NCBI GenBank assembly: GCA_029570205.1
Contig: JAKQSI010000103.1
Span: 1 to 5,342, forward strand
Source of the DNA: Candidatus Omnitrophota bacterium
Lineage (GTDB): Bacteria; Hinthialibacterota; Hinthialibacteria; Hinthialibacterales; JAKPRU01
Direction of reading: 5' to 3'
Length of the DNA stretch: 5,342 nucleotides
Position numbers and translations under genes: made by a program. The notes beneath the pieces were generated by a model. That model saw nothing but the letters and a program-made list of their open reading frames with translations. It did no database searches and was not told where the DNA came from. Numbering within the stretch: the stretch's first letter is position 1; every line of letters starts with the position of its first letter. Shown here piece by piece: positions 8-4,394 of the stretch.

Positions 8-50
8 GGCCGGGAGATCGCTGAAAGGGGAGGAAGGCAACCTCCCGGCC
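8..50 (-). repeat. GC-rich inverted repeat after the last gene; possible terminator or leader hairpin
   Basis: GGCCGGGAG (8-16) and CTCCCGGCC (42-50) are perfect inverted 9-bp arms around 25 bases. Within it, on the minus strand, GGGAGG (46-41) can instead pair with CCTCCC (33-28) around a 7-base loop, so two folds compete. It starts one base after the nucleotidyltransferase stop codon. In the leftward transcript the outer stem is followed by AACCTTT at the window edge, so a terminator with a U-tract partly outside the window is possible but not shown. No gene is visible in positions 1-50. Confidence 0.45.
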
Positions 51-602
51 TCATGTACTGCTTATGGGGTTCTCTCTGCCTTGCATTGCCCGAATGATCT
101 TCGACGAAGACATGTTTTCCATCTCACTCTGAATCAGGAGAATCGCTCCGCCATATCCTTCCACGAAGCGGCGTTCCACCTGATTGATCGTGTCGATTGA
201 ATAATCACCACCTTTCGCATAGATGTCCGGTTTCAACGTTTTCAGCGCTTCCATCGCGTCCATGCCGATCTCAATAACAAGATCAACACCCTTGATGCTC
301 GCGATAATTCCGGACCGGCACTGGAACTTCAGTACGGGCCGATGAGGCCCCTTCAATGCCTGTACCGCCTTATCCGAGTTGACCCCGACAATCAAAATCG
401 AGCCGGGGATTCGCCGCTTGATCTCCTGCAAATACCGCACATGCCCATGGTGCAATATGTCGAAACATCCGTTCGTCCACACCACCGGCGTCGGCCTGGT
501 CTTGCCGACCGTCGGCAATCGGCAAAAGGTCCGCAGCAGCGGATCTCCCAGGTCGAGAATCCGTTGCTCAGCTGTCAGTTCCGGAAACGCTTCCGTCACC
601 AT
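51..602 (-). CDS. rfaE2: RfaE2/HldE-C-like heptose-1-phosphate nucleotidyltransferase, 183 aa
   Basis: This is a cytidylyltransferase-fold protein closest in motif pattern to the C-terminal adenylyltransferase domain of HldE, which joins ATP and D-glycero-beta-D-manno-heptose 1-phosphate to ADP-heptose for lipopolysaccharide core. Visible motifs are TNGCFDILHHGHVRYL (43-58) with the HxGH nucleotide-binding signature (51-54), GVNSD (73-77), KGPHRP (84-89), Arg96, KGGDY (130-134), the GG of EGYGG (148-152), and SSSKII (165-170) in place of ISSTKI. TagD-type glycerol-3-phosphate cytidylyltransferases lack the KGGDY block. An N-terminal extension of about 38 residues precedes the domain, and no kinase domain is attached. 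ATG 602 is preferred, with a weak GGGA (612-609) 6 bases upstream; GTG 599 is the alternative. It overlaps the holin-like gene by 35 bases. The fold and family are confident; the actual sugar substrate is inferred. Confidence 0.87.
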   Translation of the reverse strand: MVTEAFPELTAEQRILDLGDPLLRTFCRLPTVGKTRPTPVVWTNGCFDILHHGHVRYLQEIKRRIPGSILIVGVNSDKAVQALKGPHRPVLKFQCRSGIIASIKGVDLVIEIGMDAMEALKTLKPDIYAKGGDYSIDTINQVERRFVEGYGGAILLIQSEMENMSSSKIIRAMQGRENPISST

Positions 603-885
603 TGCTTGTCCCGGCCCCCAGCGCTTTCTGCCGATCCGTCAGGAATCCTTTCACGAGGGTTCCGAGATAGACAAATCCGGCAGCGATCGCACTCGTGATG
701 AGTGGTCCAAGCGTCTGGCCGAACATACTGTCAAAGTCGATGCTCTGGATCACTTCTTTGATGCCCGGAATCATTTGATCGATAAACACGAGCAACGCGG
801 CAACAAAAACAAAGAGCATTCTCTTCCATGCGTTCTTGAGATCGGTCTTGTCGATCTCCCATCGTGGAGCATTGGCGTCTTTCAT
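568..885 (-). CDS. Two-helix membrane protein, holin-like, 105 aa
   Basis: Residues 22-38 (RMLFVFVAALLVFIDQM) and 59-79 (LGPLITSAIAAGFVYLGTLVK) are hydrophobic helices joined by a short acidic loop (IKEVIQSIDFDSMF). The N-terminus is charged (KDANAPRWEIDKTDLKNAWK) and the C-terminus is a hydrophilic Gly/Ser/Asp tail after a basic LTDRQKA. Small size, two spans and a charged N-terminus fit class II phage holins, which form holes in the inner membrane to release endolysin. No endolysin is visible in the window, and sequence alone does not separate a holin from other small membrane proteins. ATG 885 has an excellent GGAGG (897-893) 7 bases upstream and overlaps the previous stop as ATGA. The 3' end overlaps the next gene by 35 bases, the longest overlap here. 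Confidence 0.78.
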   Translation of the reverse strand: MKDANAPRWEIDKTDLKNAWKRMLFVFVAALLVFIDQMIPGIKEVIQSIDFDSMFGQTLGPLITSAIAAGFVYLGTLVKGFLTDRQKALGAGTSNGDGSVSGTDS

Positions 886-1256
886 GGTGCTTCCTCCATT
901 TCCAGTATGGCTTGCAGGTGCGGGCGAATCTGTTGGTCCACCCGTTCCCTGATTTCGGAGAGATCCTTGTCACTCAGGTCGAGTTCACGCCGCAACTGCG
1001 TCATCACCGTCGTGTCAGGTCTCTCCATAGCCTGATATACCCGCACATCCCGGAAGAGTTCCTCCAAATACGCCGGGCGTGGGAACTGCACTGAGTTCCC
1101 AGCCAACCGGCGTGAGATTGTCCGAAGCAGTTCCGGCTGGTCCTGCAAAGCCTCGCAGAACACATCAAAACCCGGATTGTCCCTGCGAAGCCGGATTGAA
1201 GCCAACAGCCAGATCAGGAATCCCCGCGTATACCGGGTCGTTGCACCGTCAGTCAC
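882..1256 (-). CDS. Hypothetical protein, 124 aa
   Basis: I do not recognise this protein. It starts at GTG 1256 in a GTGA overlap with the sigma-like gene and ends in an ATGA overlap with the holin-like gene, so it is in the middle of a translationally coupled set. It appears soluble and almost wholly helical. The N-terminal GFLIWLLASIRLRRD (12-26) is a hydrophobic helix ending in basic residues, too short and too charged to be a clear membrane span. Residues 27-80 are amphipathic (DVFCEALQDQPELLRTISRR and LEELFRDVRVYQAM), and the C-terminal third (83-118) is strongly charged (RRELDLSDKDLSEIRERVDQ) and could form a coiled coil. There is one cysteine and no catalytic motif. Placement between a transcription factor and a putative holin suggests a regulatory or lysis-timing accessory, but this is a guess. 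Confidence 0.75.
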   Translation of the reverse strand: MTDGATTRYTRGFLIWLLASIRLRRDNPGFDVFCEALQDQPELLRTISRRLAGNSVQFPRPAYLEELFRDVRVYQAMERPDTTVMTQLRRELDLSDKDLSEIRERVDQQIRPHLQAILEMEEAP

Positions 1257-2005
1257 GTATACATCTCCCTATTCCGTTTTTCGATCATCGCCTCGGTCCA
1301 CCCGTTTTCCCGCCGCAGTTTGTCAATCGCCAACTGCTGGTAATACAACACGTCACAAAAGAACTCGGATCCCGCTTTGGGGAATCGTTTCTGCAAATCG
1401 TATCGGTCCGGCAATCGCCCGTTCCGCTGAAAGAAATCCACAATCCACGGAGCAATTTCCAGCGCTTTATCACCCGTTGCGGCAGCGGCGATCCGCAACT
1501 GCCGACAAAGGACCGGCGTGTAAAGCGGTAGGAATTGCGCCAAGGCATGGCAGCGCGGACACACAGTCTCACCCAAATAAATGCCACACCGTGTATTCTC
1601 TGGAATGAACGCCCCACACCGTGAGCAATTGACGGACCGTTGAGCGATCTCAACCTCCGCAATATCCCGAACATTGTCGGGGTGGTATTCGAGTTCCGGC
1701 GGCAGTTCCCCAGAAAACACACCACAATCGCTCCCAACCCTCTCCAGTAGCGCGAAGGCTTTGTTGCGGAGACAGGTCCACAGGTACGCAACACAGTTCC
1801 TGTCCGGGTCCAGATCAATCCGTCGGAACAGCAGGAGCGCTTCGAGAATGCACTCCTGCTTGATCTCGTCACGAAACACCCGCGTTCGGCGACTCCAGCG
1901 GATCTCGTGGAACACCTTCTCGACCAGGGGATACATTTGCTCAAGGAAAGCGTTCTCATCCCCCGACCGAATCGCGTTATTGATCGCATCCTGGTCATAC
2001 AGCAT
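1253..2005 (-). CDS. Phage-type sigma-70-like factor (region 2, gp55-like) with zinc ribbon, 250 aa
   Basis: Residues 7-90 read like sigma-70 region 2. They start with NAIRSGDENAFLEQMYPLVE, followed by a DEIKQECILEALLLFRRIDL block (46-65) and DPDRNCVAYLWTCLRNKAF (66-84). This parallels the region 2.1-2.3 pattern of ECF sigmas and T4 gp55-like late sigma factors (D-x(2)-Q-E ... A...F-D ... F..Y-x-W/T...). Residues 127-152 form a zinc ribbon: CSRC (127-130), Cys140, CPRC (149-152). The C-terminal part (180-250, with RNGRLPDRYDLQKRF) may hold a helix-turn-helix in place of region 4. The protein would bind core RNA polymerase and direct it to phage promoters. ATG 2005 is the start, with AAGGG (2015-2011) 5 bases upstream and an 11-base overlap with the fusion gene. 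Classification rests on pattern, not alignment; a generic zinc-ribbon DNA-binding protein is the alternative. Confidence 0.62.
   Translation of the reverse strand: MLYDQDAINNAIRSGDENAFLEQMYPLVEKVFHEIRWSRRTRVFRDEIKQECILEALLLFRRIDLDPDRNCVAYLWTCLRNKAFALLERVGSDCGVFSGELPPELEYHPDNVRDIAEVEIAQRSVNCSRCGAFIPENTRCGIYLGETVCPRCHALAQFLPLYTPVLCRQLRIAAAATGDKALEIAPWIVDFFQRNGRLPDRYDLQKRFPKAGSEFFCDVLYYQQLAIDKLRRENGWTEAMIEKRNREMYT
1265..1270 (-). promoter_or_regulatory. Shine-Dalgarno deciding a GTG start
   Basis: AGGGAG lies 8 bases upstream of GTG 1256, inside the last codons of the sigma-like gene, and supports translation restart at the GTGA overlap. Confidence 0.75.
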
Positions 2006-3407
2006 ACGTACCCTTGAACACCATCACGTTGGCATGGTCCGGTTTCAGCCCTTCCGACTGCATGTACGGTTCATACGCTTTCGGTTGCCCCCGATCGGGA
2101 AGCAGGACCACCGCCCGCGCGACCTCGATAAAGCCATGCCGAACAATTTCTTCAGACAAGAATCGCGCGAAGTCGAAATAGCCCGATTGTACGCAGTCAA
2201 ATTCCTGCGCATACACGGCGAAATATCCGTTGGGCCGAAGCACGCGCTTGATCTCGCTGAGGATCGACCCGAACACGACGCGATAATTCGGGCGATCCAA
2301 TTTGCCGAGATTCGTTTCTCGTTCCGAATCCGGGTCAACATCCTTCTTCACCAGGACAGGAATCGGCGGATGCACGAATACCAGATCAACATCACCGTCT
2401 TTGATTTCCAGTGAGGCGGCGTCCATGACTTCCACCGCTTCGTGCCGAGGGCTGAGATCAGAACACCACGCCTGTCGATTCATGATCTTGCAGACATCAA
2501 CCGTTGTTCCGCTACCGGCCATCGGATCGAGAACGACATTGCCTTCCCCGGACCAGTGGGCGACAATCTGTTCGACAACCTGAGCAGGTGTGCTTTCTTC
2601 CCAATCGGGATTACCCGCGTACCGGAACGGCTGTTCAATCGGCCAGACAGACGAAAGAATCCGGCCCTGAATGCGGAGAATCTCGGCCCTGGCCTCCTGC
2701 TCGAACGACTTGCGCCGTCCCTGGATCTCTTCTTCCAGGGTGGCGATTCGGTTCTGAAGATGCTCGTTCGACCGCCGAAGCGTTTCGTTCTCTTTTCGAG
2801 CCTTCTCGTAATCCGGCGGTGTGACCTCGATCTTTTCCGGCTCCAGGGTGCGGAGGGTTTTGACCGTTGCTTCCAGTTCGCGGTTCCGGGTGGACAGATC
2901 CTTGTTCCGCGATTCGGCTTCCTGGGCCTGTTTCCGAACCTTGAGAATCTCTTCGCGGGTCAATTCATGGAGGGTCTTTTTCACCCCGTCGATTTCGACG
3001 GATTCTCCCGCCAGGAGCTTGAGCTGCACGTCCTCCGGCCACTGGCTTGAAATCAGGATGAGGATATCCTCCATCCCACGCCCGAATGCCTCATGGATTT
3101 GCTTTGCCCGTTCCTCATTGCGAGCAAGTGCCATCCATTTGTAAGCCGTGGTTCGCGGAATCCCGACTTCCTCGCGTAGCCAGGACAGGAATACTCCCGT
3201 CGGGAATCTGTCAGTCACATCCAACAAGGCTTTGCCGGCCTCAATGACGTGAAGAACAGCGGTCTGACCATGTTGCCGGACAATCTCGGCCTGACTCCGA
3301 AGCCATATCTGGTCCTCGAAGGTGAGTTGATAGTCCTTCAGCTGTCGAGTACTTACCTCAACCACCGAAGCACCGTTTTCCAATTCAAGCAACGCTGTTT
3401 CGTTCAT
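1995..3407 (-). CDS. DUF3102-like DNA-binding domain / coiled coil / DNA methyltransferase fusion, 470 aa
   Basis: Three parts can be read. Residues 45-115 resemble the DUF3102 domain of phage and plasmid proteins: EAGKALLDVTDRFPTGVFLSWL, then a helix-turn-helix-like EEVGIPRTTAYKWMALA (79-95). Residues 147-248 are rich in Glu/Lys/Arg/Gln with heptad-like hydrophobics and probably form a coiled coil. Residues 250-470 are a Rossmann methyltransferase of the DNA N4-cytosine/N6-adenine type. Motif I is DPMAGSGTT (294-302), which binds S-adenosylmethionine; the acidic motif II residue is Asp317 (CSDLSP); EIKRVLRPNGYFAVY (385-399) is the usual post-motif-IV helix and strand. Motif IV is oddly HPPI (346-349): the Pro-Pro pair is kept but the aromatic residue is Ile. 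Motif order is I then IV, with no obvious target-recognition domain, so base specificity may come from the N-terminal domain, or the domain may bind without modifying. The gene opens the leftmost block behind an operator-like leader. The methyltransferase fold is confident, activity is not. Confidence 0.85.
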   Translation of the reverse strand: MNETALLELENGASVVEVSTRQLKDYQLTFEDQIWLRSQAEIVRQHGQTAVLHVIEAGKALLDVTDRFPTGVFLSWLREEVGIPRTTAYKWMALARNEERAKQIHEAFGRGMEDILILISSQWPEDVQLKLLAGESVEIDGVKKTLHELTREEILKVRKQAQEAESRNKDLSTRNRELEATVKTLRTLEPEKIEVTPPDYEKARKENETLRRSNEHLQNRIATLEEEIQGRRKSFEQEARAEILRIQGRILSSVWPIEQPFRYAGNPDWEESTPAQVVEQIVAHWSGEGNVVLDPMAGSGTTVDVCKIMNRQAWCSDLSPRHEAVEVMDAASLEIKDGDVDLVFVHPPIPVLVKKDVDPDSERETNLGKLDRPNYRVVFGSILSEIKRVLRPNGYFAVYAQEFDCVQSGYFDFARFLSEEIVRHGFIEVARAVVLLPDRGQPKAYEPYMQSEGLKPDHANVMVFKGTYAV

Positions 3408-3413
3408 AATTGT

Positions 3414-3417
3414 CTCC
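3414..3417 (-). promoter_or_regulatory. Shine-Dalgarno deciding the start of the fusion gene
   Basis: GGAG lies 6 bases before ATG 3407. This favours that start over the in-frame ATG codons at 3419, which overlaps the site itself, and 3431, which lies inside the palindrome. Confidence 0.75.
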
Positions 3418-3421
3418 ATTG

Positions 3422-3439
3422 AGTCCCGCATGCGGGACT
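3422..3439. promoter_or_regulatory. 18-bp perfect palindrome in the leader of the fusion gene
   Basis: AGTCCCGCATGCGGGACT is its own reverse complement. In the leftward transcript it would fold into a 7-bp GC-rich stem with a CAUG loop, ending 4 bases before the GGAG ribosome-binding site, so it could affect translation. As DNA it is a natural dimer-binding operator. On the + strand it is followed by TTTTTCTTT and so resembles a terminator for rightward transcription, but no rightward gene is seen. Confidence 0.6.
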
Positions 3440-3666: not shown

Positions 3667-4354
3667 CTTTGGAAAACCTCGGTTTCTTCGGTTTCGGTTC
3701 GATCAGTTCCGGCGGATCAGTCTCGTCAGCCTCATCCGAAGGCTCATCCACACCCGTTTCGGGAAAGGATCGTCCCGGCATTGGAGCAACCCGCTCTTTC
3801 CTCTCTTCCGTTTTCCTGAGAATGCCGCGCATATACTCGGCGGCAGCGAAAATGACGGGAACAATCAGAGGTTCGTTCCCCTCCTGCCGAATCAAGTGTT
3901 TGTTGTCTTTTCCGCTGCCACGAAGCAACACTCCCTCATCGACCAGAATGGTCTCCGGGGGACCCGGCACGTTCCGTCTGAGGAACGCGATAAGGTCCAG
4001 AATGTTTGGGATCCGAATCGTTTCAACGGGCCGCAACCCTCTTTCAAGATCGTGATCCATGCGCGGCTTGCATCCGTAGTCGTACGCTACCTGCAAATTC
4101 CATTTCGCTTCGCCGTCAATGTCCTGTCCCGGATTATCGGGATCGAATACCTGCAGGAACCGGACATGCTGATCGTGGCGATCATCCCAGAACTCCTGTA
4201 CCCGGTTCACCACTGCCGGGCCAAGCGGCTCCGTACCGTTTGCCTGGAGAATCAGAACGCACTCTCCAACCTCTGCTTTCATCGGGTAGCCGCCTTCCGC
4301 CAACACTTTCAAATCACCCAGAAGCCGAATTCTTGTTCGTGGATCTAATTTCAC
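3656..4354 (-). CDS. Hypothetical protein, 232 aa, with acidic/proline-rich C-terminus
   Basis: I do not recognise this protein. It starts at GTG 4354 behind an excellent AAGGAG. Residues 1-180 look like a folded domain of mixed strands and helices. Readable blocks are ECVLILQANG (31-40), a Trp/Asp/His-rich stretch EFWDDRHDQHVRF (54-66), IPNILDLIAFLRR (115-127) and EPLIVPVIFAAAEYMRGILR (161-180). The last stretch is hydrophobic but is better read as a strand plus amphipathic helix than a membrane span. Residues 181-232 are low in complexity and probably disordered: a KTEERKER helix, then an acidic Asp/Glu/Pro run (200-219), then a basic end (KPKKPRFSK). There is no cysteine cluster or known catalytic motif. 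It is preceded by the parS-like gap and its 3' end overlaps the small gene at 3666 by 11 bases. Confidence 0.8.
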   Translation of the reverse strand: MKLDPRTRIRLLGDLKVLAEGGYPMKAEVGECVLILQANGTEPLGPAVVNRVQEFWDDRHDQHVRFLQVFDPDNPGQDIDGEAKWNLQVAYDYGCKPRMDHDLERGLRPVETIRIPNILDLIAFLRRNVPGPPETILVDEGVLLRGSGKDNKHLIRQEGNEPLIVPVIFAAAEYMRGILRKTEERKERVAPMPGRSFPETGVDEPSDEADETDPPELIEPKPKKPRFSKDGQ

Positions 4355-4378: not shown

Positions 4379-4394
4379 CGTTTCACGTGAAACG
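4379..4394. promoter_or_regulatory. parS: parS-like 16-bp perfect palindrome (putative ParB-binding site)
   Basis: CGTTTCACGTGAAACG is a perfect palindrome. Its inner 14 bases, GTTTCACGTGAAAC, are identical to the core of the bacterial chromosomal parS consensus (TGTTTCACGTGAAACA); only the two outermost bases differ. It lies in the 61-base gap between a stop codon (4416) and the Shine-Dalgarno of the next gene (4367-4362), so it overlaps no coding sequence. By family knowledge ParB loads on such sites as a CTP-dependent clamp. Use by a host or element-encoded ParB is inferred. It could instead be an operator for a local regulator with a CACGTG core. Confidence 0.72.

Follow-up and report, generated by a model that had tools for sequence, protein, structure and literature searches.

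The locus considered here raises the question of what kind of transcription factor is encoded by the open reading frame at positions 1253-2005, and what stands at the place of its sigma region 4. The window, i.e., the whole stretch of DNA analysed, is one entire contig of 5,342 bases from a genome assembly. A preliminary description had presented the frame as a divergent sigma-like factor with a zinc ribbon after region 2, belonging to a coupled gene set that also includes a possible lysis gene. The coordinates proved correct, and the gene lies on the minus strand. Based on family searches, the coupled genes were annotated as follows:

1995..3431, minus strand: DUF3102-like and DNA methyltransferase-like protein, the upstream coupled gene (PF01555, 9e-14; PF11300, 5e-5)
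1253..2005, minus strand: whole ORF for the putative divergent sigma factor with a zinc finger (250 aa, from the ATG at 2005 to the stop at 1253)
882..1256, minus strand: Mor-like transcription activator of 124 aa, the downstream coupled gene (Pfam Mor, E 6.9e-5; phrog_532, E 0.002)
568..885, minus strand: small hydrophobic protein of 105 aa with two apparent hydrophobic segments and without a family match
51..602, minus strand: cytidylyltransferase-like protein, the last gene of the coupled set (PF01467, 4.5e-16)

A relative of the window protein (P0001) was found on a phage contig of 44,668 bases (44.7 kb), which comes from a MAG of Candidatus Omnitrophota that belongs to the same genus as the window. 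This protein, P0002 (251 aa), shares 73% identity with P0001. The differences between the two genes are distributed over the codon positions as 49/34/115, and the dN and dS values are 0.17 and 1.46, respectively (dN/dS of about 0.12), which indicates that the protein is made and constrained. Thus, the ORF is a real gene under purifying selection. The family consists of these two sequences; no other relatives were found in viral contigs (queried with the protein, its parts, P0002 and the neighbour genes), phages, plasmids, genome contigs or 98 genomes. PDB sequence searches with the protein gave no meaningful match. A candidate from Actinobacteria (L004) was rejected as an unrelated protein sharing a short stretch around CGAFIPEN.

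The gene order (methyltransferase-like, sigma-like, Mor-like, small hydrophobic protein, cytidylyltransferase) is common to both contigs. Neighbouring genes of the window overlap by 4 to 35 bases, so the coupled genes are probably co-translated. The methyltransferase-like gene and the sigma gene share 11 bases, and the counterpart of the former in the relative is 83% identical; for the Mor-like gene, the overlap is 4 bases and the identity is 67%. The coupled set is therefore as described. The lysis gene fared less well: the small protein does have two apparent hydrophobic segments, but it has no family match, and the Mor-like gene lies between it and the sigma gene. The Pfam match of the Mor-like protein falls just short of the curated cut-off, and phrog_532 is a late activator family. 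The Mor-type activator gene is located directly 3′ of the sigma gene, and the two products could work as a pair. A GC-rich hairpin (GGCCGGGAG...CTCCCGGCC) was found 3′ of the cytidylyltransferase gene in both phages (window 8-50; L007 10812-10967) and probably marks the end of the gene set.

The contig of the relative carries genes for a T4 gp23-type major head protein (phrog_138, 4e-32), with 23-27% identity to the capsid proteins of gp23-type phages, and for a head maturation protease resembling gp21 (phrog_207, 3e-22). It also encodes a tail assembly chaperone, a helicase, ParB-like proteins and an anti-restriction protein. Given these T4-type head genes on a contig with the same gene order, and since no capsid gene was found in the window's own genome assembly, the window is probably a phage fragment. 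Sigma factors have been reported for all gp23-capsid jumbo phages of group 2 (PMC7824862).

Several further elements were observed on these contigs. A parS-type site (CGTTTCACGTGAAACG) is present at 4379-4394 of the window, reading on both strands, in the gap upstream of a gene for a 232-aa protein (start at 4354). Its exact 14-base core (GTTTCACGTGAAAC) occurs three times in the 4.4 Mb assembly, once in the window and twice in contig C90, where both copies lie no more than about 2 kb from the host parB. The phage may use the host ParB for segregation or control. Two ParB-like genes (L006:8247-9044 and 9633-10214) share a 300-base duplication with 81% identity. Repeat proteins that are rich in Lys/Ala and resemble histone H1 are encoded on the minus strand at about 7672-8201 of L006; their repeat unit is 15 bases long, and two nearby copies of 111 bases are 97% identical.

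For the protein itself, we suggest the following domain organization:

1727..1993, minus strand: sigma region 2 domain, residues 5-93 (AF2 model, VIA-align and hhalign)
1628..1726, minus strand: acidic linker, residues 94-126, the likely counterpart of the ECF sigma2-sigma4 linker by length and charge
1550..1627, minus strand: Cys-rich zinc-finger-like module, residues 127-152 (CxxC-x9-C-x8-CxxC; all five Cys kept in P0002)
1256..1549, minus strand: helical C-terminal part, residues 153-250 (about 98 residues), without a detectable sigma region 4

Sigma models were the top matches of residues 1-96 in both Pfam (Sigma70_r2, E 0.029) and NCBIfam (FliA/WhiG sigma, E 0.016), each single library match being below its curated cut-off. 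In a six-frame Sigma70_r2 search of the 4.4 Mb genome, the ORF ranked next after 12 clear sigma factors. Profile comparison of the P0001/P0002 pair with 20 Omnitrophota ECF sigmas by hhalign gave an alignment of residues 11-91 to their region 2, with P 1.7e-4, and none of 300 column-shuffled pairs matched the score. This alignment takes in the GDENAF stretch near the N-terminus, pairs the region 2.2 stretch FRDEIKQE with DAEDLVQE and places AYLWTCLRNKAFALLER of the window protein on AWLFRIARNLALDLLRR, the latter two partners being ECF consensus strings. The acidic pair and the QE of region 2.2 (D46 E47 ... Q50 E51) are kept, as is the Y74/R80/N81 stretch of region 2.3-2.4. With a smaller profile of host sigmas, the window protein aligned with P 0.0032 and T4 gp55, a proven sigma, with P 0.0025. 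Custom hmmsearch profiles did not separate the N-terminus cleanly from shuffled sequences, 36 of 16,262 of which scored equally or better.

The AF2 model of residues 1-96 alone had a mean pLDDT of 86.4 and a pTM of 0.76, with helices at residues 5-14, 17-34, 42-61 and 71-93. Foldseek ranked the structural candidates weakly (E above 1), the ShbA sigma being second. After realignment of these candidates by VIA-align 2, sigma region 2 domains occupied each of rows 1-13 (Z from 5.8 to 8.7, with an rmsd of 2.4-3.2 for 71-90 residues), among them ShbA (Z 8.7, rmsd 2.5 over 89), sigmaE (Z 8.6, rmsd 2.5 over 87), SigC (Z 8.2, rmsd 2.4 over 80) and CnrH (Z 8.1, rmsd 2.7 over 84). The non-sigma rows had Z of 5.3 or less and mostly an rmsd of 4.5-8; for helical bundles, Z below about 13 can reflect a common arrangement. 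In the viral structure library, the matches included a Klebsiella phage sigma-like factor and a phage Sigma70-ECF protein, with weak E-values. Of the full-length model, which was poor as a whole with a mean pLDDT of 52.7, we considered the N-terminal and Cys parts alone; sigma factors made up nearly all of the top 38 structural rows that it returned. As the model of residues 1-96 realigns best to sigma region 2, the helical bundle expected of such a domain is present in the prediction, and the sigma-like N-terminal third of the preliminary description is borne out by both profile and predicted fold. The N-terminal domain is very likely a sigma region 2.

The closest resemblance is to ECF (group 4) sigma factors such as E. 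coli sigmaE, S. coelicolor ShbA and M. tuberculosis SigC, which have the same region 2 fold in the same sequence register. The N-terminal "GDExAF" stretch and the length and charge of the linker are also common to them and the window protein. Residues 91-126 (36 aa, net charge -6) are a short acidic segment of the kind that joins sigma2 and sigma4 in ECF sigmas, the linkers of 20 Omnitrophota ECF sigmas being of 27-37 aa with charges from +1 to -9. In solved ECF complexes, the acidic linker threads the active-centre cleft and the RNA-exit channel (PMC6372665). After the linker, no further similarity was detected: ECF sigmas have region 4, whereas the window protein has a putative zinc finger and a helical part without a detectable region 4.

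The Cys residues are spaced exactly as had been claimed (C127-x2-C130-x9-C140-x8-C149-x2-C152). Residues 126-154 are the least conserved segment between P0001 and P0002 (about 45-49% identity), with 5/5 Cys kept. The label of zinc ribbon, a fold with two zinc knuckles on beta-hairpins, is doubtful. The pattern is of the four-Cys CxxC...CxxC type, but the model, with a pLDDT of only about 72-76 here, has a beta-hairpin followed by a helix starting at C149-x2-C152, so that the second CxxC is put at the helix start. C1/RING domains are among the structural neighbours (VIA rows 39, 40 and 42). Judging from the predicted fold, the module is probably treble-clef-like rather than a classical ribbon. 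A DksA/TraR finger was also considered and rejected; the likeness is local (CxxCGxxIPE), 3 of 150 Cys-fixed shuffles were as good, and P0002 does not have this stretch.

The C-terminal part (residues 153-250) is 74% identical in P0002. It is helical, as described, but its basic character is slight (net +3 over 96 residues). Its comparison with the ECF region 4 profile by hhalign gave no signal, 180 of 300 shuffles being as good, and no region 4 match was obtained in Pfam, NCBIfam or PHROGs. The claim that a zinc-type module follows region 2 where region 4 would be expected thus agrees with these searches. Replacement of region 4 by a zinc finger and a new domain is plausible, resting as it does on region 4 being undetected in two sequences. 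Since the C-terminal half has no confident model, a degenerate region 4 might still be hidden there. The protein would then be an ordinary ECF-type phage sigma whose region 4 (residues 180-250) has diverged very far and whose linker has acquired a structural zinc finger. Region 2 and the linker are indeed ECF-like, and residues 195-234 could pass for a helix-turn-helix; against this stand the shuffle result and the silence of the three libraries, and we regard such a sigma as unlikely.

The T4 late sigma factor gp55 offers another comparison. Its region 2 is accompanied by a helix-loop-helix, a conserved -35 element is missing from T4 late promoters, and gp33 occupies the flap (PMC7892883). 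Like gp55, the window protein has a region 2 without a detectable region 4 and comes from a phage whose capsid is of the gp23 type; unlike gp55, it has a Cys module, and the two do not match at the family level. Three gp55 controls (from T4, a Synechococcus phage and a Stenotrophomonas phage) matched phrog_234 with E from 2.5e-39 to 2.9e-69, whereas neither the window protein nor P0002 did, and N-terminal fragments likewise reached no gp55 family. Profile comparison with gp55 was weak. Because gp55 controls score so strongly where it has no match, the ORF is not assigned to gp55, and the family membership suggested earlier was not borne out. The protein may nevertheless work like gp55, with a region 2 that acts without a -35 contact and a zinc/helical part that touches a coactivator or the sliding clamp. 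Consistent with this are the T4-type capsid genes on the relative's contig, the in-register alignment of the same gp55 stretch by hhalign, and the precedent of gp55 itself, a region 2 without region 4 serving promoters with a -10 element only (PMC7892883). In addition to the missing family match (real gp55 proteins score 1e-39 to 1e-69), no gp33 or clamp was seen among the ORFs scanned on the relative's contig, a minority of its ORFs. We therefore consider a gp55-like late factor quite unlikely.

A region 2 fold alone predicts contact with the polymerase and not initiation, and a regulator that sequesters or blocks the host polymerase through such a domain (host shut-off) would also show it. 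Retention of D46 E47 ... Q50 E51 and of Y74/R80/N81 favours a working -10 module, which makes shut-off improbable. Extra metal-type Cys are also known in the metal-responsive ECF sigmas CorE and CorE2, whose extensions are Cys-rich (PMC8999054), but a metal or redox sensor is most improbable here, as the CxxC...CxxC spacing is typical of a structural finger, the linker has no CXC, the C-terminal extension is not Cys-rich and metal sensing is unexpected in a phage gene set. CorE keeps region 4, carries its Cys domain after it and has CXC in the linker, whereas the Cys module of the window protein comes directly after the linker. Assignment to the CorE type itself (ECF238, former ECF44) was rejected: there is no CXC in residues 91-126, and the only Cys after C152 are C167, which is not conserved in P0002, and C217.

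Based on the above results, we suggest that the window protein is a strongly diverged phage factor of the sigma70 family, with an ECF-like region 2 and a zinc-finger/helical module at the place of region 4, probably driving later phage genes; among the readings considered, this is the one we hold to be likely. A working sigma factor for phage genes is likely as well. That it binds RNA polymerase and zinc, where its C-terminal half lies and which class of promoters it serves are predictions, and so are the late-gene switch and the replacement of -35 recognition put forward in the preliminary description. Region 2 (residues 5-93) would bind the host RNA polymerase at the beta′ clamp helices and melt the promoter at a -10-like element. 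As in ECF sigma factors, the acidic linker of 36 aa would thread the active-centre cleft and the RNA-exit channel. At the beta-flap and upstream DNA, the usual place of region 4, one would expect the zinc finger (127-152) and the helical part (153-250), which could take over or replace the contact with the -35 element and the activator. The factor would thereby switch the host polymerase to the later genes of the phage, perhaps in concert with the Mor-like protein.

The preliminary description proposed to look for a shared promoter motif upstream of late genes. A candidate for such a motif was found in the relative only. CCTATATC has four occurrences in its whole contig, three of which are in short intergenic gaps of the second half, on the coding strand, here the minus strand:

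37293 of the relative contig, coding strand: candidate CCTATATC box before the protease/capsid genes
31063 of the relative contig, coding strand: candidate CCTATATC box before a structural-region gene
23245 of the relative contig, coding strand: candidate CCTATATC box before a small basic-protein gene

A TATA-containing 8-mer was present in at least three gaps in 0.3% of shuffles, and any 8-mer in 25%, in a test framed after the box had been noticed. For this reason, CCTATATC is a lead and not proof: a candidate promoter box of late-half transcription units. No such box was found in the intergenic stretches of the window. The first, presumably early, half of the relative contig carries three near-identical promoters of the TTGACA/TATAAT type (9913, 14535 and 21777). 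These read TTGACAATAGGGG...TATAAT/TATAGT on the minus strand (L005:9913 and 14535; L006:6777, i.e., contig 21777) and are flanked by repeats of 38-49 bases.

A bolder form of the preferred reading can be put forward tentatively. After an RNA-mimicking linker, the zinc finger and a new helical domain might replace region 4 at the RNA-exit channel and beta-flap, so that the protein would have converged on the layout of TFIIB/TFB and would read promoters without a classical -35 module. In archaeal and eukaryotic TFIIB/TFB, a zinc module lies beside the element threading the RNA-exit channel (PMC6372665). This is an analogy only, with an unrelated fold and the opposite order of domains, and no homology is claimed. 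No sigma with the order region 2, zinc finger, helical part was found in a limited search of searchable literature and profile libraries, and the literature searched, which covered few subscription journals, did not mention a phage sigma whose region 2 is followed by a zinc finger.

With its melting module kept and a putative zinc finger and helical part at the usual place of the second DNA-reading module, this divergent sigma may redirect the host RNA polymerase in an unusual way. If the proposal is true, an unrelated zinc module would be able to take the place of sigma region 4, and uncultured phyla would have phages whose initiation factors escape current profile libraries. The finding also bears on the occupation of the RNA-exit channel by unrelated modules across kingdoms, which was called unexplained (PMC6372665), and the 250-aa protein with its candidate promoter box makes a small, testable system.
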